Under the pieces are notes generated by a model that was not told where the DNA came from, made no database searches, and saw nothing but the letters and a program-made list of their open reading frames with translations. A program made the position numbers and the translations under genes. This document shows, piece by piece, positions 22,202 to 62,625 of a DNA stretch of 64,000 bases (position 1 is its first letter; the number at the start of each line of letters is the position of its first letter). This DNA comes from Clostridium sp. (GTDB lineage: Bacteria > Bacillota > Clostridia > Lachnospirales > Lachnospiraceae). The stretch spans positions 62,001 through 126,000 of the forward strand of contig JAMPFF010000002.1 of NCBI GenBank assembly GCA_023664605.1, written 5' to 3'.

Positions 22202-23281
22202 ATGACTATGAAATATGCACTGATTGGCTGTGGTAGAATATCGCCGAACCATTTTGCAGCGGCGAAAGCGAATAAGCTGCAGATTGTAGCTGTCTGTGAT
22301 TTGGAAGCGGACAATATGCGGGATAAAAAACTGAAATTTGACTTGGACGATACGGTAAAGGAATACACGGATTATGAGGAAATGCTAAAAAAGGAGCGGC
22401 CGGAGCTGGTGGCGATCGCAACGGAGAGCGGAAAACATGCAAAAATTGCGCTGACCTGTTTAGATTATGGCTGTCATTTGATTATAGAAAAACCGATTGC
22501 ACTGTCTATAGAAGATGCCGACAGGATTATTGAGAAAGCAAATCGGCTGCATTTAAAGGTATGTGCGAATCATCAGAACCGCTTTAACAAGTCTATTCAA
22601 AAAATTCGTGAAGCGGTGGAAAAGAACCGTTTTGGCAGAATGTTTTATGGAACCGCGCATGTCAGATGGTGCAGAGACCGGGAATATTATGACAGGGCAA
22701 ACTGGCGCGGCACATGGGAACAGGACGGCGGCGCATTGATGAATCAGTGTATACACAATATTGATTTACTCCGTTGGATGATGGGGGATGAAGTGGAGGA
22801 AGTAGTCGGTATGACGGATCGTCTGCATCATCCGTATATTGAGGCGGAGGATTTGGGGATTGCAATTATCAAATTTAAAAACGGCGCGTATGGCATCGTA
22901 GAAGGCACAACTAATATATATCCGAAGAATCTGGAGGAGACATTATATTTGTTCGGTGAAAAGGGAACCGTGAAAGCAGGTGGAACCTCTGTTAATATTA
23001 TTGAGGAGTGGCGTTTTTCCGATATGCTGGATAATCCGGAAGAAGTGAAAAGACAGTTCCATGAGAATCCGCCTAATGTATATGGTTACGGTCATACACC
23101 GTTATACGCGGATGTCATTGACGCCATTCAAAACGACAGAAAGCCTTATGTGGACGCGGAGGCGGGGAAGAGAGCCTTGGAACTTGTTTTGGCGATTTAT
23201 CAGTCCGCTTATACGGGGGCGAGCGTGAAGTTTCCGTTAGAGAAGTGTGCAACGACAGACTTTAAGGGGAGATTTTCATAA
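22202..23281 (+). CDS. wlbA: Gfo/Idh/MocA oxidoreductase, WlbA/WbpB-like (UDP-GlcNAcA 3-dehydrogenase)
   Basis: A 359-residue NAD-dependent dehydrogenase. The Rossmann start is MKYALIGCGRISPNHF, the catalytic-region EKP lies at residues 96-98 (LIIEKPIALS), and GGALMNQCIHNIDLLRWMMG carries the conserved histidine of this family. WlbA oxidises C-3 of UDP-N-acetyl-glucosaminuronic acid to the 3-keto form. The next two genes encode the matching acetyltransferase and aminotransferase in the order of the Bordetella wlb and Pseudomonas wbp pathways. ATG 22202 or ATG 22208 are both possible starts, with AGAGG upstream. The UDP-GlcNAc 6-dehydrogenase that makes the substrate is not in this window. Confidence 0.88.
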   Translation: MTMKYALIGCGRISPNHFAAAKANKLQIVAVCDLEADNMRDKKLKFDLDDTVKEYTDYEEMLKKERPELVAIATESGKHAKIALTCLDYGCHLIIEKPIALSIEDADRIIEKANRLHLKVCANHQNRFNKSIQKIREAVEKNRFGRMFYGTAHVRWCRDREYYDRANWRGTWEQDGGALMNQCIHNIDLLRWMMGDEVEEVVGMTDRLHHPYIEAEDLGIAIIKFKNGAYGIVEGTTNIYPKNLEETLYLFGEKGTVKAGGTSVNIIEEWRFSDMLDNPEEVKRQFHENPPNVYGYGHTPLYADVIDAIQNDRKPYVDAEAGKRALELVLAIYQSAYTGASVKFPLEKCATTDFKGRFS

Positions 23282-23790
23282 TGGGTTACTATGTGCATGA
23301 AAGCAGTTATGTAGATGACAATGTCATTATCGGCGATGGTACGAAAATATGGCACTTCTGTCATATTCAGTCCGGCGCCGTGATTGGTGAAAATTGTTCA
23401 CTGGGGCAGAATGTAAATATTGCAAATAATGTTCATGTTGGCAGCGAGGTTAAAATACAGAATAACGTATCGGTCTATGAGGGCGTTACCATTGAAGACG
23501 GCGTATTCCTTGGCCCCTCCTGTGTATTTACGAATGATTTGACCCCTAGGGCAAGATACCCTAAAGGGCATGATAATTATAAAAAGACACTTATCAAAGA
23601 AGGCGCCAGTATAGGCGCTAATGCAACCATTGTCTGTGGACATACGATTGGTAGGAATGCTATGGTGGCGGCGGGAGCGGTTGTTACCAAAAACATTCCC
23701 GATTATGCGTTGGCTGCCGGAGTGCCTGCAAAGGTTGTAGGCAGGGTGGATGAAAAAGGCAATATTGTTGAAAAGTACGAGGTAAAGTGA
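23281..23790 (+). CDS. wlbB: Hexapeptide-repeat N-acetyltransferase, WlbB/WbpD-like
   Basis: A 169-residue left-handed beta-helix protein. Hexapeptide repeats run from about residue 7 to 150 (for example VIIGDGTKIWHFCHI, VGSEVKIQNNVSVYEGVTIEDGVFLG, IGANATIVCGHTIGRNAMVAAGAVV). The loop FTNDLTPRARYPKG is typical for WbpD-type enzymes that acetylate the 3-amino group of UDP-GlcNAc3NA using acetyl-CoA. The start shares its first base with the last base of the preceding stop codon. Between a WlbA and a WlbC homologue the function is well supported, and homotrimer formation is expected for the fold. Confidence 0.88.
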   Translation: MGYYVHESSYVDDNVIIGDGTKIWHFCHIQSGAVIGENCSLGQNVNIANNVHVGSEVKIQNNVSVYEGVTIEDGVFLGPSCVFTNDLTPRARYPKGHDNYKKTLIKEGASIGANATIVCGHTIGRNAMVAAGAVVTKNIPDYALAAGVPAKVVGRVDEKGNIVEKYEVK

Positions 23791-24920
23791 TGGAATTTCG
23801 AGATTTAAAAACCCAATATTTACAACATAAAGAGGCCATTGATTCGGCTGTGGGCAGCGTTTTATTGAGCGGACATTTTATAGGTGGAGAGCCTGTTACC
23901 CGCTTAGAGGAAGAACTGGCGCAGTATGTAGGCGTTAAACATTGTATTACCTGCGGAAACGGTACGGATGCATTGCAGTTGGCGTTAATGGCATGGGATT
24001 TGCATGAGAATGATGCTGTTTTTGTTCCGGATTTTACTTTTTTTTCTACAGGAGAGGTTGTTCCGTGGGTTAGGGCTGTTCCGGTTTTTGTAGATGTGGA
24101 TAAAGATACTTTTAATATATCGTCAGAATCTTTGGAAAAAGCGATTCAGCATGTTTTAGCAGAGAAAAAATTGACGCCTAAAGCGGTTATTCCTGTGAAT
24201 TTGTTTGGACAGCCCGCGGACTTTCCGAGTATCCGAAAGATAGCAGAGAAGTATGATTTGTTATTGCTCGAAGATGCCGCACAGGGATTTGGCGGCAGTA
24301 TAGACGGAAAAAAAGCGTGTAGTTTTGGAGATATAGCGACGACATCTTTCTTTCCCATGAAACCTTTGGGCTGTTATGGAGACGGCGGCGCCGTATTTAC
24401 AGACAATGATGAATGGGCGGAATTAATCCGCTCTTATAAAGTGCATGGAAAGGGTTCTGATAAGTATGATAATGTGCGGATTGGAATCAATTCCAGATTG
24501 GATACCATACAGGCGGCAGTGCTTTTTGAAAAATTAAAATTTTTTGATGAAGAAGTGAAATGCTGCAATGAAGCGGCAATGGAGTATACAGCGCTTTTGA
24601 AAGATACGCTTATTACGCCGACGGTTTTATCAAATGCGTATTCAAGCTGGGCGCAGTATACCGTACGGTTTGCGGATAATGCGCAGAGAGAAAAGGCCAT
24701 CAGGTATTTACAATCGGAGGGAATTCCAACGGCAGTGTATTACCAAAAACCCATGCATTTACAAAAAGCGTTTCAAGAAGTGTGGCGATGGAGTGAAAAG
24801 AACACATATGAAGTAACGGAAAAAATATGCGATACCTGTTTGTCGCTTCCGATGCATCCTTATATGCAGCAAAGTGATATTGAAAGAATATGCGGTGTAC
24901 TGAAAAAAGGGATTGTGTAG
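23790..24920 (+). CDS. wlbC: DegT/DnrJ/EryC1 aminotransferase, WlbC/WbpE-like
   Basis: A 376-residue PLP enzyme. The PLP lysine is Lys191 in FFPMKPLGCYGDGG, with LFGQPADF, LLEDAAQGFGG and GINSRLDTIQAAVL typical of the family. WbpE/WlbC aminates the 3-keto intermediate with glutamate to give UDP-GlcNAc3NA, acting between the dehydrogenase and the acetyltransferase. ATG 23790 overlaps the preceding stop as TGATG and has GAGG seven bases upstream; GTG 23787 is less likely. Together with the next three genes it predicts a UDP-2-acetamido-3-acetamidino uronic acid. Clearly distinct from the second DegT enzyme at 38764. Confidence 0.88.
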   Translation: MEFRDLKTQYLQHKEAIDSAVGSVLLSGHFIGGEPVTRLEEELAQYVGVKHCITCGNGTDALQLALMAWDLHENDAVFVPDFTFFSTGEVVPWVRAVPVFVDVDKDTFNISSESLEKAIQHVLAEKKLTPKAVIPVNLFGQPADFPSIRKIAEKYDLLLLEDAAQGFGGSIDGKKACSFGDIATTSFFPMKPLGCYGDGGAVFTDNDEWAELIRSYKVHGKGSDKYDNVRIGINSRLDTIQAAVLFEKLKFFDEEVKCCNEAAMEYTALLKDTLITPTVLSNAYSSWAQYTVRFADNAQREKAIRYLQSEGIPTAVYYQKPMHLQKAFQEVWRWSEKNTYEVTEKICDTCLSLPMHPYMQQSDIERICGVLKKGIV

Positions 24921-24960
24921 GAGAAAATCTTATACCGGAACTTGTATTATGAATGAAAGG

Positions 24961-24980
24961 AAAGGCGTGTTATTAGTATG
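24961..24980 (+). promoter_or_regulatory. Unusually spaced ribosome binding site before the wbpG homologue
   Basis: AAAGG ends at 24965, 12 bases before ATG 24978. The spacer CGTGTTATTAGT matches CATGGTTATTAGG before the gene at 10114. No in-frame start codon is closer to the purine tract, so the long spacing is real or the true binding site differs. Confidence 0.45.
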
Positions 24981-26084
24981 GAATATCAAATATGCAGGCG
25001 TTGTGTTATGGACACTTCGGATAGAGAGATTGTTTTTGATGAAAATGGAATTTGCAATCATTGTAAAGGTGCGCAGGAAATATTGAAACAGGCGGAAGAA
25101 AAAAGGAAGCATTTTAATTTGGAAGATTTTGCAGAGAAAATCAAGACAGATGGCAGGGGAAAAAAATATGATTGCATTGTCGGTATCAGTGGTGGTGTTG
25201 ATAGTTGTTATGTAATGTATTTGGTAAAGAAAATGGGGCTTCGTCCATTGGCAGTTCATATTGATAATGGGTGGGATTCAGAGCTGGCGGTTCAGAATAT
25301 TAAAAATCTTTTGGAAAAATTGGAAATTGATTTATATACTTATGTTGTGGATTGGCAGGAATTTAGAGATATGCAACTTGCATTTTTAAAAGCGTCAACG
25401 CCGGATAGTGAAATTCCAACTGACCATATGATTTTTCCGGTATTGGGAATGCTTGCGCATAAATATAAATGCAAGTACATTATTATGGGGCAGAATAGTT
25501 CTTCAGAATCTATTCGGCCCAGAACATGGTCTTATGGGCATTTTGACTGGAAATATATTAAAAGTATCTATAAGATGTATGGTTCGGGCCAATTGAAAAC
25601 CTTTCCATATTTTAGCAGGGCGGATTATGATTATTTTACGAGAAAATATATATGGTTCGACCTTTTAGACTATATTGATTATAATAAAGACGAATCAAAG
25701 AAATTTTTACAGGATAATTATGAATGGAGAGACTATGGCGGAAAGCATTATGAATCTTTTTATACAAGGTTTTATCAGACATATATATTGCCGACTAAAT
25801 TCGGATATGATAAACGTAGAATGCATTTATCCAGTTTGATTATAGCCGGGCAGTTAAGCAGAGAAGAAGCTTTGGAAATATTGAAAACTTCACCATATGA
25901 TGAGAAAACTATTGATAGGGATATTGAATATTTCCTTGAAAAAATGCAGATTTCAAAAGAGGAGTTTGAAAGAATTATGAGAGCCAAACCGTTAAGCTAT
26001 TGGGATTACCCTAGTAATGAAAATGATGTGACGGGAAGATTGATAAAGACAATATCAAAGGCAATAGGTGGAAACGAAGAATGA
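24978..26084 (+). CDS. wbpG: N-acetyl sugar amidotransferase, WbpG/PseA family
   Basis: A 368-residue ATP-dependent amidotransferase. Two CxxC pairs (Cys6/Cys9 and Cys26/Cys29) resemble a zinc site, and the PP-loop ATP motif SGGVDS is at residues 71-76. VHIDNGWDSELAVQNI and IMGQNSSSESIRPRTW are characteristic of the family. WbpG turns an acetamido group into an acetamidino group with ammonia delivered by HisH/HisF-type partners, both encoded directly downstream. Base composition becomes visibly more A+T-rich from this gene on than in the wlb genes, suggesting that the amidination part was acquired separately. Family assignment is strong; the exact sugar position modified (C-3) is inferred from the wlb genes. 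Confidence 0.9.
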   Translation: MEYQICRRCVMDTSDREIVFDENGICNHCKGAQEILKQAEEKRKHFNLEDFAEKIKTDGRGKKYDCIVGISGGVDSCYVMYLVKKMGLRPLAVHIDNGWDSELAVQNIKNLLEKLEIDLYTYVVDWQEFRDMQLAFLKASTPDSEIPTDHMIFPVLGMLAHKYKCKYIIMGQNSSSESIRPRTWSYGHFDWKYIKSIYKMYGSGQLKTFPYFSRADYDYFTRKYIWFDLLDYIDYNKDESKKFLQDNYEWRDYGGKHYESFYTRFYQTYILPTKFGYDKRRMHLSSLIIAGQLSREEALEILKTSPYDEKTIDRDIEYFLEKMQISKEEFERIMRAKPLSYWDYPSNENDVTGRLIKTISKAIGGNEE

Positions 26085-26182
26085 AAAAATTAGTCAAAAA
26101 AATTATTTTAGGATGTATATATATCTTGGAAGATATATTACATATATGGCATTTTCATATATATAAAAAATGGAGACTATAG
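26081..26182 (+). CDS. Small 33-residue basic amphipathic peptide gene between wbpG and hisH
   Basis: The frame starts with an ATG that overlaps the wbpG stop as ATGA (26081-26084) and ends with TAG at 26180-26182, three bases before the hisH start. It thus fills the whole gap. The 33-residue product begins MKKLVKKIILGCIYILEDIL and continues with His/Trp/Lys-rich residues ending KKWRL. It has alternating basic and hydrophobic residues and one cysteine, which suggests a membrane-surface helix. Its last codons contain TGGAGA, which serves as the hisH ribosome binding site, so its translation would couple wbpG to hisH. It may be a real small protein, a coupling device or chance. No homologue is known to me. 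Confidence 0.4.
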   Translation: MKKLVKKIILGCIYILEDILHIWHFHIYKKWRL

Positions 26183-26185
26183 TTT

Positions 26186-26806
26186 ATGATAGTAATTGTA
26201 GATTATGGAATGGGAAATCTTTATTCTGTAAAGAATATGCTGAAATACTTGGGGTATGACAGTGTTGTTACCGATAGTATGAATGAGATAGAAAAAGCGG
26301 ATAGATTGATTTTACCAGGGGTCGGTAATTTTGGGAAAGCAATGAGTGTAATAAACGAATCGGGTCTTCGTGATATTCTAAACCGGAAAGTATTAGAAGA
26401 GAAAATCCCCATATTAGGTATTTGTCTGGGAATGCAGTTATTCTTGGAATATAGCGAAGAAGGTAATTGCGAGGGACTGGGATGGATAAACGGAGATGTG
26501 AGACGTTTTGAATTGGATGGACAAGGGTTGAAGATTCCGCATATGGGATGGGATTATATAGAAAGGCAGCACGATTCTGAACTGCTTGTAAATCCAAAGC
26601 CGGATGAGCGGTATTATTTTGTTCATTCTTATTATGTAACATGTAAAGATAGAAATCATGCAGTTGCGACGACGGAATATGGGATTACATTTGATTCTGT
26701 TATTCAAAAAGAAAATATAGCAGGAACGCAGTTTCATCCGGAGAAAAGCCATAAATTTGGCATGAACATTTTAAAGAATTTTGTGGAGAATTTTTATGTA
26801 TCATAA
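26186..26806 (+). CDS. hisH: HisH-like glutamine amidotransferase (glycan amidination partner)
   Basis: A 206-residue class I glutaminase. The nucleophile is Cys80 in LGICLGMQLF, and His184 and Glu186 lie in TQFHPEKS, so the catalytic triad is intact. Other HisH marks are VDYGMGNLYSV and LPGVGNFGKAM. It would hydrolyse glutamine and pass ammonia to the HisF-like partner encoded next, which overlaps it by 11 bases. No other his gene is nearby and WbpG is adjacent, so it serves sugar amidination rather than histidine synthesis, as HisH2 does in Pseudomonas O-antigen clusters. TGGAGA lies nine bases before the ATG. Confidence 0.92.
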   Translation: MIVIVDYGMGNLYSVKNMLKYLGYDSVVTDSMNEIEKADRLILPGVGNFGKAMSVINESGLRDILNRKVLEEKIPILGICLGMQLFLEYSEEGNCEGLGWINGDVRRFELDGQGLKIPHMGWDYIERQHDSELLVNPKPDERYYFVHSYYVTCKDRNHAVATTEYGITFDSVIQKENIAGTQFHPEKSHKFGMNILKNFVENFYVS

Positions 26807-27560
26807 CAGATTAATTCCCTGTCTGCTATTGGATAATGGGAGATTGGTAAAAACACAGCAGTTTCATAAACCGGTTTATATTGGTGATCCGATAAACGCT
26901 GTCAAAATCTTTAATGATAAAGAAGTTGACGAACTGGTGTTTTTGGATATCAATGCAACGAAAGCAAACAGACAGCCTGATTTTGAATATTTGCGCAAAA
27001 TTACGGAACAGTGTTTTATGCCACTGTGTTATGGAGGAGGTATTGTCTCTATAGAAGATATTGGAAAACTATTCCGAATTGGATTTGAGAAGGTATCTAT
27101 CAATGCATCTGCATTTCGGAATATCAACCTTCTGAAAGAGGCAGTGAAAGTCTACGGAAGTCAGAGTATTGTAGGCGCTATTGATGTAGGGAAAAATATG
27201 TTTGGCAAGAATGTTGTAAAAATAGTAAACGGAACGCAGAATACGAAGATGAGTCCGGTAGAATATGCAAAGATGTTGGAGGGTGCCGGAGCTGGGGAAA
27301 TATTTTTAAATTCCATTACGCATGATGGTATGATGCAGGGATATGATTATCAGGTGATTGAAGAAGTTTCGTCTGCTGTGCAGATTCCGGTTATTGCTTG
27401 TGGCGGTGCAGGTAATTTACAGGATTGTAAAAAGGCGATAGAGAGCGGTGCAAGTGCGGCGGCAGCAGGAAGTATTTTTGTTTTTTGGGGTATTAATAGA
27501 GCTGTTCTGATAAATTATCCAAATAGCAGTGAAGTGGCAGAATTGTTTGAAATGGCATGA
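26796..27560 (+). CDS. hisF: HisF-like ammonia-channel subunit lacking the cyclase Asp11
   Basis: About 254 residues, a (beta/alpha)8 barrel: IPCLLLDNGRLVKT, VFLDINATKANR, CYGGGI, KVSINASAF, GAIDVG, GAGEIFLNSITHDGMMQGYD, IACGGAG. Aligned with Thermotoga HisF (MLAKRIIACLDVKDGR), the N-terminus matches position by position, but the catalytic Asp11 is Leu. The second acid (GAIDVG, equivalent to Asp130) is kept. Loss of Asp11 argues against imidazole-glycerol-phosphate synthase activity and for a role as an ammonia tunnel to WbpG. ATG 26796 is chosen because GGAG lies upstream and the barrel begins there. The stop is followed by a 44-base gap. Confidence 0.9.
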   Translation: MYHNRLIPCLLLDNGRLVKTQQFHKPVYIGDPINAVKIFNDKEVDELVFLDINATKANRQPDFEYLRKITEQCFMPLCYGGGIVSIEDIGKLFRIGFEKVSINASAFRNINLLKEAVKVYGSQSIVGAIDVGKNMFGKNVVKIVNGTQNTKMSPVEYAKMLEGAGAGEIFLNSITHDGMMQGYDYQVIEEVSSAVQIPVIACGGAGNLQDCKKAIESGASAAAAGSIFVFWGINRAVLINYPNSSEVAELFEMA

Positions 27561-30552: not shown

Positions 30553-30575
30553 AAGGAGGCATGGCTGCCCGTATG
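30552..30575 (+). promoter_or_regulatory. Strong Shine-Dalgarno with a 13-base spacing
   Basis: AAAGGAGG (30552-30559) is a near-perfect binding site, yet the first ATG (30561) is one base away and the next in-frame ATG (30573) is 13 bases away. Both are off the usual 5-9 bases. The four codons between the two ATGs repeat the layout seen at 10102/10114 and 583/595. Confidence 0.5.
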
Positions 30576-31946
30576 GAAAAATACAAGATAGAAGAACTGG
30601 ATTTTATGTTTATTTATGAACATAAAGTAAGGGAACTGGAAAATTTATGCCTTTTAAAATATGAACTGGATAAAAGAGGATATAAGACAAAGATTATTCA
30701 TATCGAAGATGCGGAGGCATTAAAAGCAATGCGTCCTATTTATCATACGAAAGTAGTCGTGACAATGGCCTGCTATCAGAACAGTTCGATTGAATGGCAT
30801 ACGAAAAATTTCGTAAAATTTGATAAGCTCATCGATTTACAATGGGAGAACATCGTTTTTCCGATGGACGAAAAAGATACGAAAGCATATAAAAATTATT
30901 CCGGCGTAGCCAAAGAGGTTGTCAGGGTATCATGGGGAACAATGAATCAGAAACGTATGCTGGAAGTCGCGAAGATGGACCCGAAAAAAGTCAAATTGAT
31001 AGGGCATGTCGGCATGGATTTTTTGCGGGATGAGTTAAAGGGTTATTATCTTTCCAAAGAAGAAGTAGTGAAAGATTATGGCATTTCTGCTGATAAAAAG
31101 ATATTTCTGTTTGTTTCGCCCTATTTCTCCGATTTTCATACAGAGGAGTATCTGGTTGAGATGTGCAGACGGTTTGGCGAGGGTTGGCGGTATTATTATA
31201 AGGACTGCATGCTTCCTTCCAAAAAAATCATATTGGACTGGATGAGCAGAATCTGTGAAGAGAGGGAAGATATTGTCTTTGTATACCGGCCGCACCCCGG
31301 AGAGGAGAGCGGGCAGGCGCTTGCAATGGAAAAGCAGTATGCCAATTTTAAAGTAATTGGTGAGAGGTCGGTAAAACAATGGATTCTGATTAGCGATAAA
31401 ATATACACGGGGAACAGTTCGACGTTTGTGGAAGCATTTTTTGGGAAAAAGATGTGTTATCTGCTTTTTCCGGTTCCCGTACCGGCGGATTATGAACTTG
31501 CCTTTTTGAAGGATGCAGATAAGATTTCGGATTATACTGATTTTGAAAAAACAACATATGAAGATAACCGACCGTTTCCGGTCAGCGAGAAGTTGATTGA
31601 TGAAGTGTATACGATTGACTGGGATAAGCCAAGCTATGTTAAGTTTGCGGATATGGCGGAGGAGGTTCTGCAAAATCCATATTATAATCTGACAAAGGAA
31701 CAGCTAAAGACATATTATCATAAGATGGGGCCGGCTGAAAAAGTGACGAAAGCCTTGACAAAGATTACCCCGCTGTATAATGTATATTTGACAATGCTGG
31801 AAAACGACAGACCGCGTTGGAAATGGCTGGAGGCAAAACGTGAGGCGAGGCGGAAACTGGAATTAGTCGCCCATGACTATGAAAAAACAAGCGATGAAGA
31901 GATTCATGCAATTATAGCGAAAATAGCAAAAGAACTGGAACAATAA
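30573..31946 (+). CDS. GT-B transferase of the CDP-glycerol glycerophosphotransferase/capsule family
   Basis: About 457 residues. The C-terminal half has FLFVSPYFSDFHTEEYL, IVFVYRPHPGE and, at about 280, YTGNSSTFVEAFFGKKMCYLLFP. These are the HP and SS-E motifs of the Glyphos_transf / KpsC-like GT-B superfamily. The N-terminal 150 residues resemble nothing I can name. It lies 14 bases before a CMP-sugar synthetase gene, and transferases of this broad fold use CMP- or CDP-activated donors. The most economical role is transfer of the CMP-activated sugar acid made by the next three genes, which is inference from position. The start may be 30561 instead. Confidence 0.7.
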   Translation: MEKYKIEELDFMFIYEHKVRELENLCLLKYELDKRGYKTKIIHIEDAEALKAMRPIYHTKVVVTMACYQNSSIEWHTKNFVKFDKLIDLQWENIVFPMDEKDTKAYKNYSGVAKEVVRVSWGTMNQKRMLEVAKMDPKKVKLIGHVGMDFLRDELKGYYLSKEEVVKDYGISADKKIFLFVSPYFSDFHTEEYLVEMCRRFGEGWRYYYKDCMLPSKKIILDWMSRICEEREDIVFVYRPHPGEESGQALAMEKQYANFKVIGERSVKQWILISDKIYTGNSSTFVEAFFGKKMCYLLFPVPVPADYELAFLKDADKISDYTDFEKTTYEDNRPFPVSEKLIDEVYTIDWDKPSYVKFADMAEEVLQNPYYNLTKEQLKTYYHKMGPAEKVTKALTKITPLYNVYLTMLENDRPRWKWLEAKREARRKLELVAHDYEKTSDEEIHAIIAKIAKELEQ

Positions 31947-31960
31947 GGAGGAAGAAAACA

Positions 31961-32641
31961 ATGAATAAAACAATTTCAGCAGTCGTACCGGTAAAGGGAA
32001 GCAGCACTCGTCTGCCCAATAAGAATATTCTGCCTTTTGGAGATTCTAATTTATTACAGCATAAGATTGAGCAGCTTAAACAGGTGAAAGGGCTTCATGA
32101 GATTATTGTCTCATCCGATTCCGACGAGATGCTTGCTATCGGTGAAAAGTGCGGTGTGAAAGCGATTAAGAGGCCGATACAGTATGCCAATGAATCTGTA
32201 CCTTTCGGTATGTTTTTGGAATATCTGTGTGATACTATCGAGGGAGACCATCTTTTGTATGCCTGTGCAACATCTCCCTGTGTGGAACCTTATCTTTATG
32301 AGAAAGCGATAAAGGTATACTTTGAGAAGCTGGAAGAAGGATACGATTCCCTGATTACGGTCTCTCCTTACCAGACCTATCTGATGGATGATAACGGGCC
32401 TCTGAATTTTAAGATGGGACTGGAACATAAAAATTCCGAACAGCTTCCCATGATGTATCATTTTACAAACGGGATTGATTTGGCACCCACCGAGAAAGTG
32501 CGGGAGTGGCATTACAACTATGGTCCTAAATATTATCAGCTTGTGATAAATAAGCGCGAGGCGGCGGATATTGACGATTTATATGACTATGAAATGGCGA
32601 AAGCACTCTATGCAATGAAAGACCCTAATCCGACGAAATAG
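31961..32641 (+). CDS. Acylneuraminate/ulosonate cytidylyltransferase family (CMP-sugar synthetase)
   Basis: A 226-residue nucleotidyltransferase. The N-terminal ISAVVPVKGSSTRLPNKNILPFG matches the P-loop-like consensus of NeuA/LegF/KdsB-type enzymes. IIVSSDSDEML, YACATSPCVEP and INKREAADIDDLYDYEMAKALY give the rest of the family pattern. It would couple CTP to a 3-deoxy-2-ulosonic acid at the anomeric position. No NeuB/KdsA gene is adjacent; an HMGL-type aldolase gene follows instead. AAGGAGGA stands eight bases before the ATG. It is the only CMP-sugar synthetase in the window, so it might also serve the second sugar-acid module after 56 kb. Confidence 0.85.
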   Translation: MNKTISAVVPVKGSSTRLPNKNILPFGDSNLLQHKIEQLKQVKGLHEIIVSSDSDEMLAIGEKCGVKAIKRPIQYANESVPFGMFLEYLCDTIEGDHLLYACATSPCVEPYLYEKAIKVYFEKLEEGYDSLITVSPYQTYLMDDNGPLNFKMGLEHKNSEQLPMMYHFTNGIDLAPTEKVREWHYNYGPKYYQLVINKREAADIDDLYDYEMAKALYAMKDPNPTK

Positions 32642-32713
32642 TGGAAAGAGTATAAAGGGAGAAGTTATAAAACTAAAGATAGAAAAATTCATTTGGCAGT
32701 TTAGAGGGAAACT

Positions 32714-34285
32714 ATGGTAAATATTAAATTACTGGACTGCACCCTGCGGGATGGCGGTTATATCAATGATTGGGATTTCGGATACCATACGATTAAAAAT
32801 ATTATCAGACAGCTTGTCAAGTCACAGACAGATTACGTGGAAATCGGATTCTTAAGAAACTGTGAATATAATAGAGATAAGGCGTTATATAATAACTGTG
32901 CCGAAATGCTCCCGGTTCTTCCTGAGAAAAAAGGAAATACTGTATTTACGGCGATGGCGCTTCATAACAAATACGACGTGGATAAACTGGAACCGTATGA
33001 CGGCAGGACGATTGACGCCGTCCGCGTGACCTTTCATGACTATGATATCGACGAAGGGCTTGCCTTTATCAAAAAGGTAAAAGAAAAGGGTTACAAAGTA
33101 TTTTGTAACCCTATTAATATTATGGGGTATTCCGATAATAAAATACTGGAGCTGTTAAATAAAGTCAATCAAATACAGCCATATGCTTTTTCTATTGTAG
33201 ATACGTTCGGTTCCATGATGAAATCGGATTTGCTGCGCATCTATTCCCTGATAGAGCATAATCTGGACAAGTCCATTGTCATCGGGCTGCATCTTCATGA
33301 AAATCTGGCGTTGTCCTATTCTTTGGCACAGGACTTTATTGCGATGAAGTCCAGCGAGCGAAAAAGTGTTATTGACGCTTCCATGCTTGGTATGGGAAGG
33401 ACGCCGGGAAATCTGTGCATGGAACTGATTATGGATTACATGAACAAAACACAGGGAACGGTGTATGATGTAAATCCCGTGCTGGATGGCATTGACGATT
33501 ATATTATACAGTTAAAACAGATAGAGCCGTGGGGTTACAGTACCGCATATGCGCTTTCCGCTAAGTTTAACCTGCATAGAAACTATGCGGAATTTCTATT
33601 GGGGAAAGGACGGCTTCGGGCAAAGCAGATTAATCAAATACTGGCAAGCATTGCAGAAAATAAGAAAACCGCTTATGATGAAGCCTATATTGAGGAACTC
33701 TATCAAAAATTCCAAAACCATGAAGTAGATGACGCTGCACTGATTGCCAGGCTGCATAACGACTTAAAAGGCAGAAAGATTTTGATACTGGCGCCCGGTT
33801 CCAGCATTGTCAGACAGAAAGAGGAAATAGAGACCTTTATCCAAAAAGAGTCGCCGGTTATTATATCGGCCAATTTTGCTTCCGCTGATTACCGACAGGA
33901 TTATATCTTCGTTTCCAATGCGATGCGATATGGGGCATTGGATGAGCAAAGAAAAGAGAGTACTATTTTGATTACCTCCAATTTGATGGATGTATGCGAA
34001 GAACAGAATGTGCTGAATTATGCTGAACTAAGTTTTGATGAAAAGGGGAATTGTGACAACTGTGTCATTATGCTGATGAAACTTTTAATTAAACTGGGTA
34101 TCGAGCGGGTTTCTATAGCAGGCTTTGATGGATACCAGGGAACGGGCGGCAACTATGTCACTTCTTATATGGCAAGCCAGCATACGAAAGGGATGGAGGA
34201 AAACATCCGGAATCGCAGGTACTTGGAAGATATCCGAAAGCAGATAGAGGTTGCATTTTTAACGGATTCACTTTATAATAAATAA
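32714..34285 (+). CDS. HMGL-type aldolase fused to a C-terminal Rossmann-like domain
   Basis: A 523-residue two-domain protein. Residues 1 to about 290 are a DRE-TIM metallo-aldolase: LLDCTLRDGGY (Asp8, Arg12, Asp13), HLHEN with metal-binding His193 and His195, and GMGRTPGNLCME. These match 4-hydroxy-2-oxovalerate aldolase, which adds pyruvate to aldehydes. A helical linker follows. Residues about 355-523 start ILILAPGSSI, continue VIISANFASADYRQDYIFVSNAMRYG and contain VSIAGFDGYQG. This order recalls DUF115/GT42 sialyltransferase folds. Between a CMP-sugar synthetase and a KdsC-like phosphatase, the aldolase may form a 3-deoxy-2-ulosonic acid from pyruvate and an aldose instead of using PEP. 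The function is inferred. Confidence 0.8.
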   Translation: MVNIKLLDCTLRDGGYINDWDFGYHTIKNIIRQLVKSQTDYVEIGFLRNCEYNRDKALYNNCAEMLPVLPEKKGNTVFTAMALHNKYDVDKLEPYDGRTIDAVRVTFHDYDIDEGLAFIKKVKEKGYKVFCNPINIMGYSDNKILELLNKVNQIQPYAFSIVDTFGSMMKSDLLRIYSLIEHNLDKSIVIGLHLHENLALSYSLAQDFIAMKSSERKSVIDASMLGMGRTPGNLCMELIMDYMNKTQGTVYDVNPVLDGIDDYIIQLKQIEPWGYSTAYALSAKFNLHRNYAEFLLGKGRLRAKQINQILASIAENKKTAYDEAYIEELYQKFQNHEVDDAALIARLHNDLKGRKILILAPGSSIVRQKEEIETFIQKESPVIISANFASADYRQDYIFVSNAMRYGALDEQRKESTILITSNLMDVCEEQNVLNYAELSFDEKGNCDNCVIMLMKLLIKLGIERVSIAGFDGYQGTGGNYVTSYMASQHTKGMEENIRNRRYLEDIRKQIEVAFLTDSLYNK

Positions 34286-34329
34286 GATATGGCAGTTGGT
34301 TGAATAAGGCGAAAGCAGGCAGAGAAGCT

Positions 34330-34860
34330 ATGTTTGATAAAGAGAGTTTACAGAAAATTAAATATCTTGTCATAGATGTAGATGGTACGATGACAGATGC
34401 CGGCATCTATTATGATGAACACGGCAATGAGTTAAAGAAGTTTTGTACAAAGGACGCAGCGGGATATTTTGCGGCACAGAAAGCAGGAATAAAATTGATG
34501 GTGCTGACAGGCAGAGAATGCCAGGCGACTACCCGCAGAATGCAGGAGATGAAGTTTGATTATATTGTGCAGAACGTTAAGGATAAAGTCACTTATTTAA
34601 AGTCATTTATGGAACTGAATGGTATATCGGGGCAGGAAGTTGGTTATATCGGGGATGATTTAAATGACTTGGCGTCCATGAAATTATGCGGTTTTATAGG
34701 ATGCCCTGCTGATGCCTGCGAAGAAGTCAAGGCACAGGCTGACTATGTGGCGCAGACAAAGGGCGGATATGGAGCGGTCAGGGATGTTATTTGTGCCATG
34801 TTGAAGAAGTGTGGCGTGTGGGAACAGGTGGTATCGGATGTTTATGGAATAGGTACATGA
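34330..34860 (+). CDS. KdsC-like HAD phosphatase
   Basis: A 176-residue HAD protein with the nucleophile motif VIDVDGTMTD (Asp16, Asp18), LTGREC (motif II) and GYIGDDLNDLASMKLCG (motif IV acids). The lack of a cap domain and the sequence KKFCTKDAAGYFAAQKAGIKLMVLTGR match 3-deoxy-manno-octulosonate-8-phosphate phosphatase KdsC, which works as a tetramer. It would dephosphorylate an ulosonic acid phosphate. Together with the aldolase and the CMP synthetase it completes a three-step route. ATG 34330 is preferred over a TTG at 34300. Its stop overlaps the following ATG as ATGA. Confidence 0.87.
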   Translation: MFDKESLQKIKYLVIDVDGTMTDAGIYYDEHGNELKKFCTKDAAGYFAAQKAGIKLMVLTGRECQATTRRMQEMKFDYIVQNVKDKVTYLKSFMELNGISGQEVGYIGDDLNDLASMKLCGFIGCPADACEEVKAQADYVAQTKGGYGAVRDVICAMLKKCGVWEQVVSDVYGIGT

Positions 34861-47206: not shown

Positions 47207-48274
47207 ATGTATAAAATAATCATTGCAGGCGCAGGAAGTTCACAGTCTAATGGAGTTATTAATTGTCTGCTTAAGGATAAGGAAGAAAATGAGATTATTG
47301 GCATCGGTTCTGATAAATATGATTTGATGTTGTGCAATGCTCATAAAAAATATCTGATTCCACATTCTACAAAGCCGGATTATAAAGAAACATTATTGAA
47401 AATTCTGGAAAAAGAAAAACCGGATATGATACATTTTAATCATGATGTGGAATTAGCAATAGCATTAAAGTTTGAAGATGAGATTCGTGCAACCGGAGTG
47501 AAAATGCTGGTACCCGATTATGAGACGATTGATACATGTGTATACAAATATAAATCCTGGAAGAAATTTAAAGAGGCCGGTGTGATAGTTCCGGAAAATC
47601 AGATAATACATACGGAAGATGATTTGAGAAACGCTTTTTCGACATTGGCGGATGATGAAGGAAACGTTTGGTTTAGACCTATGATTATTGGCAATGGAGC
47701 CAGAGGAGCAATCAAGACGAATGAGTATGAAGAAGCGAAAGAATGGATTGATAATGCTTCCGGATGGGGAAATTATATGGCTGCCGAGGTTTTACCGGGA
47801 GAAAATGTGACATGGATGGCTATCTGGAATCACGGCGAATTGATAGTGGCACAAGGACGGAAAAGAGGCGCTTGGGCATACAGTGCAATGAGTCCGAATG
47901 GTATTAGCGGTTTAACAAAGATTGGTATAACATATTCATCTGAAGAGCTGGATGGAATTGGAATTAATTGCTGTAAAGCAGTGAGTAAAGTTCCACATGG
48001 TATTTATGGAGTTGATTTGAAGTGTGATAAAAATGGAGTTCCTAATCCTACTGAAATTAATATATCCAGATTTTTTGCTACGGTGGAATTTTTTGCAGAG
48101 GCAGGATTAAACATGCCGGTGATTTTGAAAGACTTATGTCTATATCAAAAAAAGCCTGAACTGGAAAGAATCTGTAACCCGCTTCAAGATAATCTGTTGT
48201 GGATTAGAGGAATGGATGAGCGGCCCGTTTTAACGACAGAAAAAGAAATCGAGAGGAAATTGATAAAGATATGA
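47207..48274 (+). CDS. ATP-grasp ligase
   Basis: A 355-residue ATP-grasp protein. An N-terminal Rossmann-like part (MYKIIIAGAGSSQSNGVINCL, IIGIGSDKYDL) is followed by the ATP-binding KYKSWKKFKEAGVIVPENQI, VWFRPMIIGNGARGAIK (glycine-rich loop) and the metal-binding NPTEINISRFFAT. It resembles CarB-like and PylC-like ATP-grasp enzymes, which join a carboxylate to an amine through an acylphosphate. The downstream ThDP gene overlaps it by ATGA. In this context it may amidate or acylate a sugar acid or make an amino-acid conjugate. The substrate is unknown. Confidence 0.82.
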   Translation: MYKIIIAGAGSSQSNGVINCLLKDKEENEIIGIGSDKYDLMLCNAHKKYLIPHSTKPDYKETLLKILEKEKPDMIHFNHDVELAIALKFEDEIRATGVKMLVPDYETIDTCVYKYKSWKKFKEAGVIVPENQIIHTEDDLRNAFSTLADDEGNVWFRPMIIGNGARGAIKTNEYEEAKEWIDNASGWGNYMAAEVLPGENVTWMAIWNHGELIVAQGRKRGAWAYSAMSPNGISGLTKIGITYSSEELDGIGINCCKAVSKVPHGIYGVDLKCDKNGVPNPTEINISRFFATVEFFAEAGLNMPVILKDLCLYQKKPELERICNPLQDNLLWIRGMDERPVLTTEKEIERKLIKI

Positions 48275-49929
48275 CAGGCGCGGATTATATTGTCAATTTA
48301 TTGCTCAGAAAAGGTATTACAGAGGTATATGGATATCCTGGAAGTGCGATGATGAAGCTTATGGATACAATGATACAATCTGAAAAAATATCTTTTAGAC
48401 AGAATTATCATGAACAGGCATGTGCTTTTGCTGCGGACGGATATGCGCGAACAACTGGAGAAATGAGTGTGTTATTAGTTACATCTGGCCCTGGTGCAAT
48501 TAATGCGTTGGCAGGAATTGCAGATGCTTATTGTGATTCGATTCCTATGCTTTGTATTACGGGACAGGATAATACATCTTATGTCCTCAGAAATGGCCAA
48601 ACACGTCAAAAAGGGTTTCAGGATTTGAATATTGCATCTATAGCTGCACCAATTACCAAATACAGTGTAATGATTACTTCTATAGAAAATCTTGCATATG
48701 AAATGGAGAAAGCAATTACAATTGCTAATACTGGAAGGAAAGGTCCGGTTCTTGTAGATATTCCACTGGACATACAGTTTGCATTAATGCCCGATGTTTT
48801 GAGGCATTATGAAGACAAATGCAATATAAATAGTGAAGTAAAGAGTAACGATATAGAAAAAAGTCTTGAGATGATAAGACAGGCGACAAGACCGCTTATA
48901 TTAGCAGGTGGAGGTATTCGTTTGTCTGGAGCAGTTGAAGAGTTTCGCACATTTTTAGACAAAACTAAGATACCTATGGTAGCAACTTTAAATGGATTAG
49001 ATTGTGGAAGTGCCGTTTATGGTTTTTCCGGAACGTACGGACATGTATATGCGAATATTGCATTGGCACATACAGATTGTTTACTTGTGTTAGGTGCAAG
49101 GTTAGCGAAACATCAAGTAGGAAAAGAATTAGATAAGTATACGAGTGCCAAGATTATTCACATAGATATTGATGATAATGAGTTAGAGCGTGTTCTAAAG
49201 GGAGTACTTACTATAAAATGCGATATTAAGCAATATCTTCAAGAGGCTAATGCTCGTTTAATGAGTCATGAGTCATTTTCATTTGACAAATGGTGGAAGC
49301 AGCTTGATTTTTGGAAAAGACAGACGGATTTTTTATATCAGGAGAGTGTTATTGAGTATATTAGAGCAATATCTTTAAAGTTATCTACGGAAACAGTAGT
49401 CACAGCAGATGTTGGGCAGAATCAAATGTGGGTTGCTCAAGGTATTTCATTAAAAGGAAATATGCGTTTACTGAATTCAGGCGGTTATGGTTCAATGGGA
49501 TTTTCATTACCGGCGGCTATTGGAGCATCTATTGCTCGAAATAACCAAATGGTAGTAGCATTTATGGGAGATGGCGGATTCCAGATGAACATACAGGAGT
49601 TGCAATATTTAAAATTGAATAATCCTAATATTAAATGCATTATTTTTAATAACAATACCCTAGGTATGATGAAAGATGTGCAAAGACAGTTTTATAACAG
49701 TCATTTCTGTGGAAGTTCGCCTGAATATTATCAATGTGTTAATGTAAGCAACATTGCACAAGCTTATGGGTTAAAGTATTATTTGGTAGATTTAGATTCT
49801 GCATGGGATGATACTTCCTATTTGAATAATAGTGATGCGTGTCTGGTAGAATGTATTATCAGAGATGATGTGAGATTATTAAATAAATATGATGTTCAAA
49901 TGGAGTATGAAAGGTATTGTTCCAGATGA
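48271..49929 (+). CDS. Thiamine-diphosphate enzyme, acetolactate-synthase-like
   Basis: A 552-residue ThDP enzyme with the three-domain order of the AHAS/benzaldehyde-lyase family. The catalytic glutamate is Glu48 in NYHEQACAFAADGYAR, and the ThDP/Mg site is GDGGFQMN (433-440) continuing to FNNNTLG. TSGPGAINALAGIADAYCDSIPMLCITGQ is the family core. No regulatory subunit gene is near, so branched-chain amino-acid synthesis is unlikely. In sugar pathways such enzymes (for example YerE) add a two-carbon unit to a keto sugar or decarboxylate 2-oxo acids. The gene shares ATGA junctions with both neighbours. It is only distantly similar to the second ThDP enzyme at 58201. Confidence 0.88.
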   Translation: MTGADYIVNLLLRKGITEVYGYPGSAMMKLMDTMIQSEKISFRQNYHEQACAFAADGYARTTGEMSVLLVTSGPGAINALAGIADAYCDSIPMLCITGQDNTSYVLRNGQTRQKGFQDLNIASIAAPITKYSVMITSIENLAYEMEKAITIANTGRKGPVLVDIPLDIQFALMPDVLRHYEDKCNINSEVKSNDIEKSLEMIRQATRPLILAGGGIRLSGAVEEFRTFLDKTKIPMVATLNGLDCGSAVYGFSGTYGHVYANIALAHTDCLLVLGARLAKHQVGKELDKYTSAKIIHIDIDDNELERVLKGVLTIKCDIKQYLQEANARLMSHESFSFDKWWKQLDFWKRQTDFLYQESVIEYIRAISLKLSTETVVTADVGQNQMWVAQGISLKGNMRLLNSGGYGSMGFSLPAAIGASIARNNQMVVAFMGDGGFQMNIQELQYLKLNNPNIKCIIFNNNTLGMMKDVQRQFYNSHFCGSSPEYYQCVNVSNIAQAYGLKYYLVDLDSAWDDTSYLNNSDACLVECIIRDDVRLLNKYDVQMEYERYCSR

Positions 49930-50546
49930 AAAATTTGTTTTGGGATTTAGATGGAACTCTGGTCGATTCAAGGCGTAGGCTTTATGAACTTTTCTGTTAT
50001 CTTACAGATACTGAATGGTTGAGTTATGAACAATATTGGGATTATAAAAATAAGGGATATAACCAACAGAAAATGTTGTCCGATGTTGTACATTATCGCA
50101 AAACATCTTTAGAAGAGTTCAGTAACAAGTGGATGGATAATATAGAAAAAGTCGAATGGCTTAAAAAGGATACATTACAGCCCGGCGCAGAAAATCTGCT
50201 AAAGCGTTTGAAAGAAAAAGGATATGCAATGTTTGTTGTAACAAACAGGCAAAGCCATAAGAATACGGTAGAACAGCTTCATTGGTTAGGGATACTTCCT
50301 TATTTTGAATCAGTATATGCTACTGCTCAAAAGTGCAGGAAAAGTGAGATAATACGCAACAATATATCTGTTAAAGCAGAAGACATATTGATAGGTGACA
50401 GTGATGAAGATATGATAGCAGCTCAGGAATTAGGGATTACTTCAATTATCATTAAAAGTGGACAGGCCTTTCATGTGATTGAACATGAGCAAATGAAGAG
50501 TTATACCGTGAATGATTATGATGGTATCTGGGAGGTGTTTCAATGA
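49926..50546 (+). CDS. HAD hydrolase, phosphoglycolate-phosphatase-like
   Basis: A 206-residue HAD protein with LFWDLDGTLVDSRRRLYELF (nucleophile Asp at residues 6 and 8), a helical cap domain of about 60 residues, VVTNRQSHK (motif II) and ILIGDSDEDMIAAQELGI (motif IV). It resembles small-molecule sugar phosphatases. ATG 49926 overlaps the ThDP stop as ATGA, so the nine bases upstream in frame are not used. It probably dephosphorylates an intermediate of the ATP-grasp/ThDP steps. After the stop only a 14-codon open frame (50543-50587) without recognisable content precedes the next gene. Confidence 0.87.
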   Translation: MKNLFWDLDGTLVDSRRRLYELFCYLTDTEWLSYEQYWDYKNKGYNQQKMLSDVVHYRKTSLEEFSNKWMDNIEKVEWLKKDTLQPGAENLLKRLKEKGYAMFVVTNRQSHKNTVEQLHWLGILPYFESVYATAQKCRKSEIIRNNISVKAEDILIGDSDEDMIAAQELGITSIIIKSGQAFHVIEHEQMKSYTVNDYDGIWEVFQ

Positions 50547-56130: not shown

Positions 56131-56215
56131 TGTTTGCAGGGTTTGTATCTAAAATTTTCCATCAAAGATAACATTTGTTAGAAAAAGTATTGTTCATAGC
56201 ATGTGAGGTTTCATG

Positions 56216-57040
56216 ATGAGTACATTCATAATAGCGGAAATCGGCATTAATCACAACGGAGACTTACAGTTAGCTAAAAAACTGATTGACACTGCTGTCG
56301 TGGCAGGGTGTGACGCCGTTAAATTCCAGAAAAGAACCGTGGATAAGGTATATACAAAGCAATATCTGGACTCTCCGAGGACAAGCCCGTGGGGTGAAAC
56401 ACAGAGAGCGCAGAAAGAAGGCCTTGAGTTTGGCAAAAAGGAATATGACGAAATCGACTTCTACTGTAAACAGAAAGGAATCGAGTGGTATGCTTCCGCA
56501 TGGGATATTGATTCGCAGAGGTTTCTGCGGCAGTATGACTGCCATTATAATAAGGTTGCTTCTGCGATGCTGACCAATGAAGAACTGCTTACCGAAATCG
56601 CGGAGGAAAAGAAATATACTTTCATTGCCACCGGGATGAGTACGCTTGCGGAGATTGATAAGGCGGTGGATATTTTTGAAAAGCATGGCTGTCCGTATGA
56701 ACTTATGCACTGTAACAGCACATATCCTATGCCGTCAGAAGATGCGAACCTGAAGTTAATCAAGGTTCTTGCGGATATTTATAAATGTAAGGTTGGCTAC
56801 AGCGGCCATGAGGCCGGCACATTAGTCAGCACCTGCGCGGTTGCGGCGGGAGCCACGTCTATTGAGCGGCATATCACGCTTGACAAAAATATGTACGGTT
56901 CCGACCAGAAAGCGTCGATTGAGCCATATGAGTTGTGCCGATTGGTAAAAGACATCCGTGAGACAGAGAAGATCATGGGAACAGGCAAGAAGATTTTGAC
57001 GGCTGCGGAAGAGGAAGTCAAGAAAAAACTTAGGGGTTAG
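56216..57040 (+). CDS. NeuB-like synthase without SAF domain
   Basis: About 274 residues. FIIAEIGINHNGDLQLAKKLIDTAVVAGCDAVKFQKRT is the NeuB/SpsE N-terminal signature. HCNSTYPMPSEDANLK, VGYSGHEAGTLVSTCAVAAGATSIERHITLDKNMYGSDQKASIEP gives the rest of the TIM barrel that condenses PEP with a sugar. Normal NeuB/LegI proteins are about 340 residues and end in an antifreeze-like SAF domain that helps bind the substrate; here the protein ends right after the barrel. It may use a smaller aldose. GAGG lies seven bases before ATG 56216. The gene is visibly richer in G+C than the genes around it. Confidence 0.85.
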   Translation: MSTFIIAEIGINHNGDLQLAKKLIDTAVVAGCDAVKFQKRTVDKVYTKQYLDSPRTSPWGETQRAQKEGLEFGKKEYDEIDFYCKQKGIEWYASAWDIDSQRFLRQYDCHYNKVASAMLTNEELLTEIAEEKKYTFIATGMSTLAEIDKAVDIFEKHGCPYELMHCNSTYPMPSEDANLKLIKVLADIYKCKVGYSGHEAGTLVSTCAVAAGATSIERHITLDKNMYGSDQKASIEPYELCRLVKDIRETEKIMGTGKKILTAAEEEVKKKLRG

Positions 57041-57044
57041 GCTG

Positions 57045-58112
57045 ATGATTAAACTGGTAATTTTTGATATAGATGGAATAATAACTGATGACACAGTTAT
57101 TATTGATGACACGGGAAGAGAACAAAAAAGAATCAATTTCAAAGATATAGATGCTATTTTTGAATTACACAGACGGGGTTTTCAGCTCGCTGCCATTACA
57201 GGCGAGGGAAACGCAATGGTCGATTATTTTCACAAACGTTTCCCTTGGGATTATTTTTATTCAAACAACAAACAAAAAAAAGAGACAATCAAACAACTGG
57301 CTTTACATTCCGGAATTTCCGTATCAGATATGTGCTTTATTGGCGAGGGAAAATACGATGTAGAAGCTTTGGAATATGTCGGGTTAGGCATATGTCCGCC
57401 TGATTCCATTACTGAGGCAAAGCAGGCTGCTGATATTATTCTCCAGAATTTCGGCGGTCATGGTTGTGTTTGGGAACTGGTTGATATTTTAGAACGATAT
57501 AATAATACTGATAATTCACACAGCTATTTTTATCAAAGGCTTGAAGAACATAGTAATATTTTTAAATCAATGGCATCGGATATTGCTTTAATTGATAATA
57601 TTATGTCTATCGGCGACAGAATAATCGCTGCATTTGAAAAAGGCAATAAACTACTGTTATGCGGTAATGGTGGGAGCGCCGCAGATGCACAGCATATCGC
57701 AACTGAATTTATCAGCCGGTTTTATAAAGAAAGAAAAGCTATGAATGCAGAAGCGCTGACCGTTAATACATCTACGCTGACAGCCATTAGCAATGATTAT
57801 AGCTATGAAAAAATCTTTGTACGGCAAATTGAAGCAAAAGGAATTACCGGAGATATTCTGATTGGTATCTCTACCAGCGGAAAATCCAAAAGCGTTTTGG
57901 AGGGCTTGCGATATGCTCGTTCACAGGGGATTTACAGCATTATGCTAATGGGTAACTTTCAAAATTTTGAACTGGAAGATGCGGCGGATATAGTTATTAA
58001 AGTTCCGTCACAGATTACACCGAGGATACAGGAAGCGCATATTTTTCTGGGCCACTTATTAGCAGAATATGTAGAGCATTGTATGTATAAAAACTCGAAA
58101 ATTATAACATAA
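57045..58112 (+). CDS. KdsC-like phosphatase fused to a GmhA-like SIS isomerase
   Basis: A 355-residue two-domain protein. Residues 1 to about 150 are a KdsC-type HAD domain (VIFDIDGIITDD with Asp8 and Asp10, AAITGEGNA, FIGEGKYDVEALEYVG). Residues about 165-350 are a SIS domain very like sedoheptulose-7-phosphate isomerase GmhA (LLCGNGGSAADAQHIATEF, NTSTLTAISNDYSYE, GISTSGKSKSVLEGL, EAHIFLGHLLAEYVE). The HAD motif IV has EGKYD rather than the common GDDxND, so the phosphatase may be altered. The fusion links isomerisation of a ketose phosphate with phosphate removal in the same pathway as the NeuB-like synthase. Confidence 0.88.
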   Translation: MIKLVIFDIDGIITDDTVIIDDTGREQKRINFKDIDAIFELHRRGFQLAAITGEGNAMVDYFHKRFPWDYFYSNNKQKKETIKQLALHSGISVSDMCFIGEGKYDVEALEYVGLGICPPDSITEAKQAADIILQNFGGHGCVWELVDILERYNNTDNSHSYFYQRLEEHSNIFKSMASDIALIDNIMSIGDRIIAAFEKGNKLLLCGNGGSAADAQHIATEFISRFYKERKAMNAEALTVNTSTLTAISNDYSYEKIFVRQIEAKGITGDILIGISTSGKSKSVLEGLRYARSQGIYSIMLMGNFQNFELEDAADIVIKVPSQITPRIQEAHIFLGHLLAEYVEHCMYKNSKIIT

Positions 58113-58200
58113 AAACTAATAAATGAAAATATGTCATATATAGACTGTGGCAAGTATGTAAATGATACAATCGAAAAAGATGTGCATAGAGGATGATGAA

Positions 58201-59985: not shown

Positions 59986-60015
59986 AAATTATCACAGGAT
60001 AAAAAGGAGGATATG

Positions 60016-60978: not shown

Positions 60979-60992
60979 AAGCAGGACTAAAG

Positions 60993-61838: not shown

Positions 61839-61850
61839 GATGAGAACTTT

Positions 61851-62624: not shown

Positions 62625-62625
62625 T

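Follow-up and report, generated by a model that had tools for sequence, protein, structure and literature searches.

A possible phosphoenolpyruvate-independent route to a CMP-activated ulosonic acid, centred on a pyruvate-type aldolase in a Clostridium polysaccharide cluster

The closest described systems are the KdsA/KdsC/KdsB pathway, which leads to cytidine monophosphate (CMP)-linked 3-deoxy-manno-octulosonic acid (Kdo), and the NeuB/NeuA pathways; in both, a three-carbon unit is joined to an aldose or aldose phosphate, a phosphatase acts and the product is transferred to CMP, the carbon-carbon bond being made by a phosphoenolpyruvate (PEP)-dependent synthase. Here we analyzed a 64,000-nucleotide stretch of Clostridium sp. 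(Lachnospiraceae; GCA_023664605.1, contig JAMPFF010000002.1, positions 62,001 to 126,000, forward strand; hereafter the window), in which the phosphatase and cytidylyltransferase families common to those pathways stand on either side of an HMGL-type aldolase gene. The expected order of chemistry would be the same as in the known systems, whereas the bond-forming enzyme would be a metal-dependent pyruvate aldolase in place of KdsA or NeuB. From comparison of sequences and gene neighbourhoods, we consider it likely, with room for doubt, that aldolase, phosphatase and synthetase together supply the surface polysaccharide with a CMP-activated 3-deoxy-2-ulosonic acid by a route independent of PEP. 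Such a route would likely be a variant, dispensing with PEP, of a pathway type already described. No description of an HMGL-type aldolase feeding a CMP-ulosonic acid was found in the literature covered, from which subscription journals were mostly absent.

The block consists of four intact, consecutive genes on the + strand within a polysaccharide cluster lying at ~20-45 kb in the window: a GT-B type glycosyltransferase (start 30561 or 30573, end 31946), a NeuA/PseF-like (CTP_transf_3) CMP-sugar-acid synthetase of 226 residues (31961-32641), the 523-residue, bifunctional-looking aldolase (32714-34285) and a KdsC-type HAD phosphatase ending at 34860, for which an ATG start at 34330 is likelier than a TTG at 34300. 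A first-pass annotation of the window had named this row of synthetase, aldolase and phosphatase behind a GT-B transferase, and open reading frames and profile matches bear out all four members. The synthetase start is preceded by a Shine-Dalgarno-like AAGGAGG; the protein matched PF02348 (E 2e-13, 51.1 bits, gathering cut-off 22.6), fell below the PseF equivalog TIGR03584 (73.3 bits, cut-off 205.7), found its best PDB relatives among CMP-NeuAc synthetases (6ifd, E 1.9e-8) and carries the motifs K-G-S-S-T-R-L-P-N-K-N at residue 12 and D-I-D-D at 203. The phosphatase exceeded the subfamily cut-off of TIGR01670 (127 bits, cut-off 106.95) and remained under the equivalog cut-offs for both the 2-keto-3-deoxynononate (KDN)-9-phosphatase (NF058599, 137.4 vs 180 bits) and KdsC (PRK09484, 128.6 vs 208 bits). 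It contains D-V-D-G-T, T-G-R-E and G-D-D-L-N-D motifs, and its best PDB matches were 3e81 (E 5.1e-27) and the KdsC structure 4um5 (E 9.4e-24); in view of the NF058599 match we take 3e81 to belong to the KDN-9-phosphate phosphatase family, its PDB label reading acylneuraminate cytidylyltransferase.

The aldolase domain (residues 1-340; 32714-33733) is HMGL-like (PF00682, E 5.5e-17, 62.5 bits, gathering cut-off 29), and its nearest well-defined counterparts are the 4-hydroxy-2-oxovalerate aldolases DmpG/BphI (PDB 1nvm, 8ih7, 4lrs), which share the HMGL-like TIM barrel and with which the arginine and the metal-ligand positions align. In the profile alignment R12, D13, H193 and H195 correspond to positions 17, 18, 200 and 202 of 1nvm, of which we take 18, 200 and 202 to be metal ligands and 17 to be the arginine. 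D8, R12, D13, H193, H195, R216 and H288 were each invariant in all 50 rows of our family alignment (A2); the claim of the first-pass annotation that Asp8, Arg12, Asp13, His193 and His195 are intact therefore stands, although Asp8, invariant as it is, does not emerge as a metal ligand from the alignment with 1nvm. Unlike DmpG/BphI, the window protein has another C-terminal domain and lies in a non-catabolic cluster, and the alignment with them stops near residue 270. It also has Tyr at residue 16 (Tyr in 48 of 50 rows, His in 2) where 1nvm has His21, presumably the catalytic base, a feature that the first-pass annotation had overlooked along with the C-terminal domain. The closest solved sequence, 3dxi, a structural-genomics 'putative aldolase', was matched by the family profile with 171 bits over residues 3-317, yet it is without the C-terminal domain and, in the profile alignment, without the family's Arg216 and His288.

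To assess the genomic setting of the family, genome contigs were scanned with a 14-row alignment, and the best 80 of 555 confirmed aldolase relatives were taken as loci (numbered with L below). A cytidylyltransferase lay directly upstream on the same strand in 46 of the 80 (30 KdsB-type and 15 NeuA-like by motif, 1 unclassed); in 6 more it was found at another place in the locus. As a rough yardstick, the cytidylyltransferase label fell on 88 of 1936 open reading frames in the neighbourhood pool, which overlaps the 80 loci. Chance adjacency of aldolase and synthetase was rejected in view of these 46 loci together with the Lachnospirales neighbour counts given below. NeuB was found in none of the 80 loci, and the sole KdsA match, in L080, was a sub-cut-off hit of 85 bits to an open reading frame resembling a 3-deoxy-arabino-heptulosonate 7-phosphate (DAHP) synthase. 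A KdsC- or HAD-IA-type phosphatase lay downstream at a distance of no more than 1.5 kb in 32 of the 52 cytidylyltransferase loci and in 6 of 28 loci with a thiamine-diphosphate enzyme. A quick tree built from 55 aldolase domains placed the window with L075-L077, which have NeuA-like partners (support 95), and next with L078 and L080 (support 92), which have KdsB-type partners and KdsC-type phosphatases and whose genomes hold neither NeuB above 100 bits nor KdsA over cut-off; across the tree partners switched repeatedly, with five changes between synthetase and thiamine-diphosphate contexts. A similar row of aldolase, 3-deoxy-manno-octulosonate cytidylyltransferase and HAD hydrolase is annotated in RefSeq on a Leisingera plasmid, whose synthetase went unlabelled by the KdsB profile, probably because the caller skipped the reading frame.

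The relation between aldolase and KdsA was examined in 392 Lachnospirales genomes, with genes counted as neighbours at 3 kb or less and aldolases listed from 150 bits upward. Among 28 KdsB-like matches, 12 lay near an aldolase, 6 near KdsA and none near both; the corresponding numbers for 27 relatives of the window synthetase were 13, 5 and 0. With no synthetase near both, the aldolase thus sits where KdsA otherwise sits, next to the same types of synthetase. Furthermore, aldolase was present in 16 of 22 genomes with KdsB as opposed to 38 of 370 without (Fisher P 8e-11, kinship ignored).

Whole-genome searches covered 46 genomes chosen from the 80 loci, 42 of them of the synthetase class. NeuB was counted only above 100 bits (16 of 46 genomes). 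At E<=0.001 the NeuB profile had a match in 40 of 46, but the weaker matches were dropped because the same reading frames give sub-cut-off KdsA matches and seem to be DAHP synthases. Neither NeuB above 100 bits nor KdsA over cut-off was found in 23 of the 42, including 19 with the synthetase directly upstream of the aldolase; isolates among the 23 are Bacillus sp. EAC, Paenibacillus sp. HB172176, Flavonifractor sp. An82, Proteocatella sphenisci and Robinsoniella peoriensis, the last with its synthetase 2.8 kb from the aldolase. A second set comprised 25 genomes with the aldolase; NeuB exceeded 100 bits in 15 and KdsA its cut-off in 2, both of which also had NeuB, leaving 10 with neither, all ten 92-100% complete. 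The aldolase-synthetase pair is thus not always accompanied by a separate NeuB or KdsA, a constant partnership that the first-pass annotation had named as telling against its proposal. Taken together, the comparisons provide good support for the aldolase as a putative stand-in for the PEP-dependent synthase beside a CMP-sugar-acid synthetase.

Several observations, to which the replacement of the catalytic histidine by Tyr16 belongs, weigh against this assignment. The window's own genome contains four NeuB-family matches, located at window position 56213, C22:153293, C16:38039 and, for the weak one, C22:144464 (contigs of this genome being given as C numbers, with the window at C22:62001-126000); the scores, from high to low, are 339, 287.5, 242.9 and 125.9 bits. 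Only the C16 NeuB adjoins a synthetase of its own, no cytidylyltransferase was detected near the two other strong ones, and the genome has just two sugar-acid-type synthetases, C16:37230 and that of the window; two further PF02348 matches start like IspD/TarI proteins and were interpreted as such. NeuB was also present in the genomes of the three nearest relatives, L075-L077, of which L077 has no phosphatase recognized beside the aldolase. Across the 42 synthetase-class genomes NeuB occurred in 14, KdsA in 6 and both in 1, and as many of the genomes are metagenome-assembled, absence of a synthase weighs less there. In the Lachnospirales sample, finally, 10 of 28 KdsB-like and 9 of 27 window-type synthetases had neither aldolase nor KdsA as a neighbour.

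These counts bear most directly on the strongest alternative, in which a NeuB encoded elsewhere, for example at window 56213 or C22:153293, feeds the synthetase to give an ordinary nonulosonic acid while the aldolase serves some other step. The surplus of NeuB-family genes over sugar-acid synthetases favours it, as do the NeuB genes of L075-L077 and the failure to detect another synthetase elsewhere in the window or within C22:125001-164900. No PEP-dependent synthase lies within the four-gene block, the nearest NeuB in the window being that at 56213, and KdsA was not matched anywhere in the window's genome. On the other hand, the C22 NeuB genes are at least 24 kb off, each with a thiamine-diphosphate enzyme close by, such that they may feed another use. 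The adjacency of aldolase and synthetase persists in genomes lacking both NeuB and KdsA, and among loci with a NeuA-like partner 8 of 12 tested genomes had no NeuB above 100 bits, although 4 of those 8 have KdsA. We therefore regard supply by a distant NeuB as unlikely. The earlier proposal that the aldolase replaces the synthase is upheld by the conserved adjacency, by the absence of NeuB from all 80 loci and by the genomes with neither synthase, but for the strain itself it has to be qualified, because its own NeuB enzymes may supply the synthetase.

A second alternative is that the 4-hydroxy-2-oxo acid made by the aldolase is used otherwise, for instance in thiamine-diphosphate-dependent sugar branching, and that the adjacent synthetase activates an unrelated acid. 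Relatives of the window aldolase do adjoin thiamine-diphosphate enzymes together with RfbH/RfbG, as in YerE/ErwE-type branched-sugar pathways: a thiamine-diphosphate enzyme was found within 5 kb in 28 of 80 loci, 26 of them among the 28 loci without a synthetase, and strong RfbH or RfbG matches occurred in 15 of the 28. Judging from this context, the thiamine-diphosphate enzymes in the 26 loci are probably YerE-like; in one locus the best NCBIfam matches were acetolactate synthases, below cut-off. The window, too, has thiamine-diphosphate enzymes, at 48271 and 58162. However, the two contexts are nearly exclusive, with both partners in only 2 of 80 loci (L110, L128) and neither in another 2, and in the window the partner in the block is a CMP-acid synthetase 72 bases from the aldolase, whereas the nearest thiamine-diphosphate gene is ~14 kb away; this alternative appears very unlikely. 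The thiamine-diphosphate loci in fact lend support to the aldolase assignment, because ErwE accepts 4-hydroxy-2-oxo acids as donor (PMC12247030), and these are the type of product such an aldolase would form.

More remote still is the idea that the enzyme cleaves an ulosonic acid in order to recycle or degrade it, or that it has acquired another DRE-TIM activity such as acyl-CoA condensation. Tyr16 and scores far under the curated 4-hydroxy-2-oxovalerate aldolase cut-offs (TIGR03217, 50.5 vs 286 bits; PRK08195, 61.6 vs 229 bits) would agree with it. Against it, the family profile matches pyruvate aldolases (77-102 bits) better than the acyl-CoA-condensing isopropylmalate and homocitrate synthases (35-55 bits), and the setting is a biosynthetic polysaccharide cluster with synthetase and phosphatase alongside. 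A catabolic aldolase was likewise set aside: distant short relatives with 25-28% identity (3dxi-like sequences and a C40 copy) were treated as another family and excluded from the counts. The C40 copy is a stand-alone short relative in the window's genome (L038, 8079-9056) between the genes for tyrosine-tRNA ligase and chorismate synthase, and short aldolase-like matches at 24-30% identity occurred in many of the sampled genomes. A Priestia plasmid carries an aldolase copy in a different gene context.

Under the favoured reading, the metal-dependent aldolase would add pyruvate to a phosphorylated aldose, yielding a 4-hydroxy-2-oxo acid phosphate, that is, a 3-deoxy-2-ulosonate with a terminal phosphate. 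The KdsC-type phosphatase, going by its family, would remove the phosphate and so pull the reversible aldol reaction forward, and the NeuA-like cytidylyltransferase would then use cytidine triphosphate to form the CMP sugar, an activation that would also pull the equilibrium. Among the fixed neighbours of the aldolase no dedicated isomerase was recognized, and its aldehyde is therefore probably a common sugar phosphate. KpsF, the Kdo-specific arabinose-5-phosphate isomerase, scored over cut-off in 0 of 34 genomes (weakly in 3), which makes Kdo itself an improbable product. Altered positions in the KdsB proteins on the aldolase side likewise fail to support Kdo: the residue before GDEP was Asn in 21 and Gln in 7 of 35 KdsB beside the aldolase and Gln in 5 of 6 beside KdsA, and several other positions differed, in a small sample with kinship ignored and with one KdsA-side protein (L251) also having Asn.

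The last and least certain step would be transfer of the activated acid by the GT-B enzyme, a candidate transferase that adjoins the CMP synthetase in L075-L077 as well. It scored 124.8 bits against the curated cut-off of 125 for TIGR04396 ('surface carbohydrate biosynthesis protein') and 88.9 bits for a BFO_1060-type glycosyltransferase domain, under the cut-off of 200, and a PDB sequence search with it returned no relative. Its R-P-H-P motif at residue 243 is comparable to the HP motifs that bind CMP-sialic acid in known transferases (PMC6388019).

The C-terminal domain of the aldolase protein (about residues 345-523; 33746-34285) possibly adopts a Rossmann-like MptE/Maf-type fold. Conserved G, N, R and G-x-D-G positions were seen in 37 rows; 6 of 37 members matched MptE-like PF01973, all weakly and short of the Pfam cut-off (best E 0.0048), and hhalign comparisons with MptE-like sequences gave probabilities of 27% and 31% (E 7e-4 and 5e-4). 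MptE-like proteins presumably include Maf-type transferases. The domain is possibly a CMP-sugar transferase; the similarity is weak and the domain occurs in thiamine-diphosphate loci too. It is missing from some relatives that still lie beside CMP synthetases (L043:1926, L073:9151), and L094 has, upstream of its aldolase/synthetase pair, an MptE-like gene of its own. Weak Lyx_isomer matches in 6 of 37 members were taken as chance.

Beyond the window, the data may point to a widespread, undescribed PEP-independent branch in which one pyruvate aldolase family has taken over from KdsA and NeuB in numerous bacteria. Its 3-deoxy-2-ulosonic acids, probably other than Kdo, would go to CMP synthetases of three kinds, and the same type of product would go in sister lineages to branched-sugar thiamine-diphosphate enzymes; we give this broader proposal about an even chance of being correct. 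If it holds, Gram-positive bacteria that lack NeuB and KdsA would harbour sugar acids activated with CMP for which no one has searched. Predictions of Kdo and nonulosonic acids commonly rely on KdsA or NeuB; if the aldolase can substitute for them, genomes scored as incapable, including many Lachnospirales and other Firmicutes, may make such acids, KdsB-like genes without KdsA gain a source of substrate, and surface sugars of gut bacteria become predictable. A reversible pyruvate aldolase coupled to a phosphatase and a synthetase would, moreover, be a handy tool for ulosonic acid synthesis.

Aldolase loci of other layouts were also encountered. In a Firmicute (L079, 12144-17199) the row reads aldolase, phosphatase, a 916-residue protein, a polysialyltransferase-like protein (PF07388, 27.1 bits, cut-off 23.3) and KdsB, with the same layout in L085/L086 and L040, L086 and G318 being one and the same contig. 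L073 (8420-12250) has a short aldolase between two different NeuA-like synthetases, followed by a KdsB-like synthetase and a KdsC-type phosphatase. L144, L146, L126 and L149, candidates for undescribed branched 3,6-dideoxy sugars, combine the aldolase with a HAD-IA phosphatase, a thiamine-diphosphate enzyme and RfbH/RfbG, and a Desulfobaculum plasmid carries RfbH, transketolase halves and a short aldolase. Among 64 loci from IMG/VR, a synthetase lay beside the aldolase in 13, a thiamine-diphosphate gene in 9 and neither label in 29, and no aldolase reading frame was called in 13; in IMG/VR contigs of putative viruses (L156-L164) a short aldolase directly precedes a thiamine-diphosphate enzyme, with RfbH/RfbG-like genes nearby.

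The window contains further sugar genes. At 22202-27560 lie a Gfo/Idh oxidoreductase, an acetyltransferase, an aminotransferase, an N-acetyl-sugar amidotransferase-like protein and HisH/HisF-like proteins, a putative amidino-sugar pathway. The thiamine-diphosphate enzyme at 48271-50546 (304.7 bits with a profile built here) is followed directly by a HAD-IA-like protein (43.9 bits). Finally, a second ulosonic-acid-like cluster at 56213-63459, in which no cytidylyltransferase was found, comprises a short NeuB (275 residues), a KdsC-GmhA fusion, a thiamine-diphosphate enzyme, an aminotransferase, an epimerase and two short-chain dehydrogenases/reductases, and its combination of NeuB, phosphatase and thiamine-diphosphate enzyme mirrors the loci that combine aldolase, phosphatase and thiamine-diphosphate enzyme.

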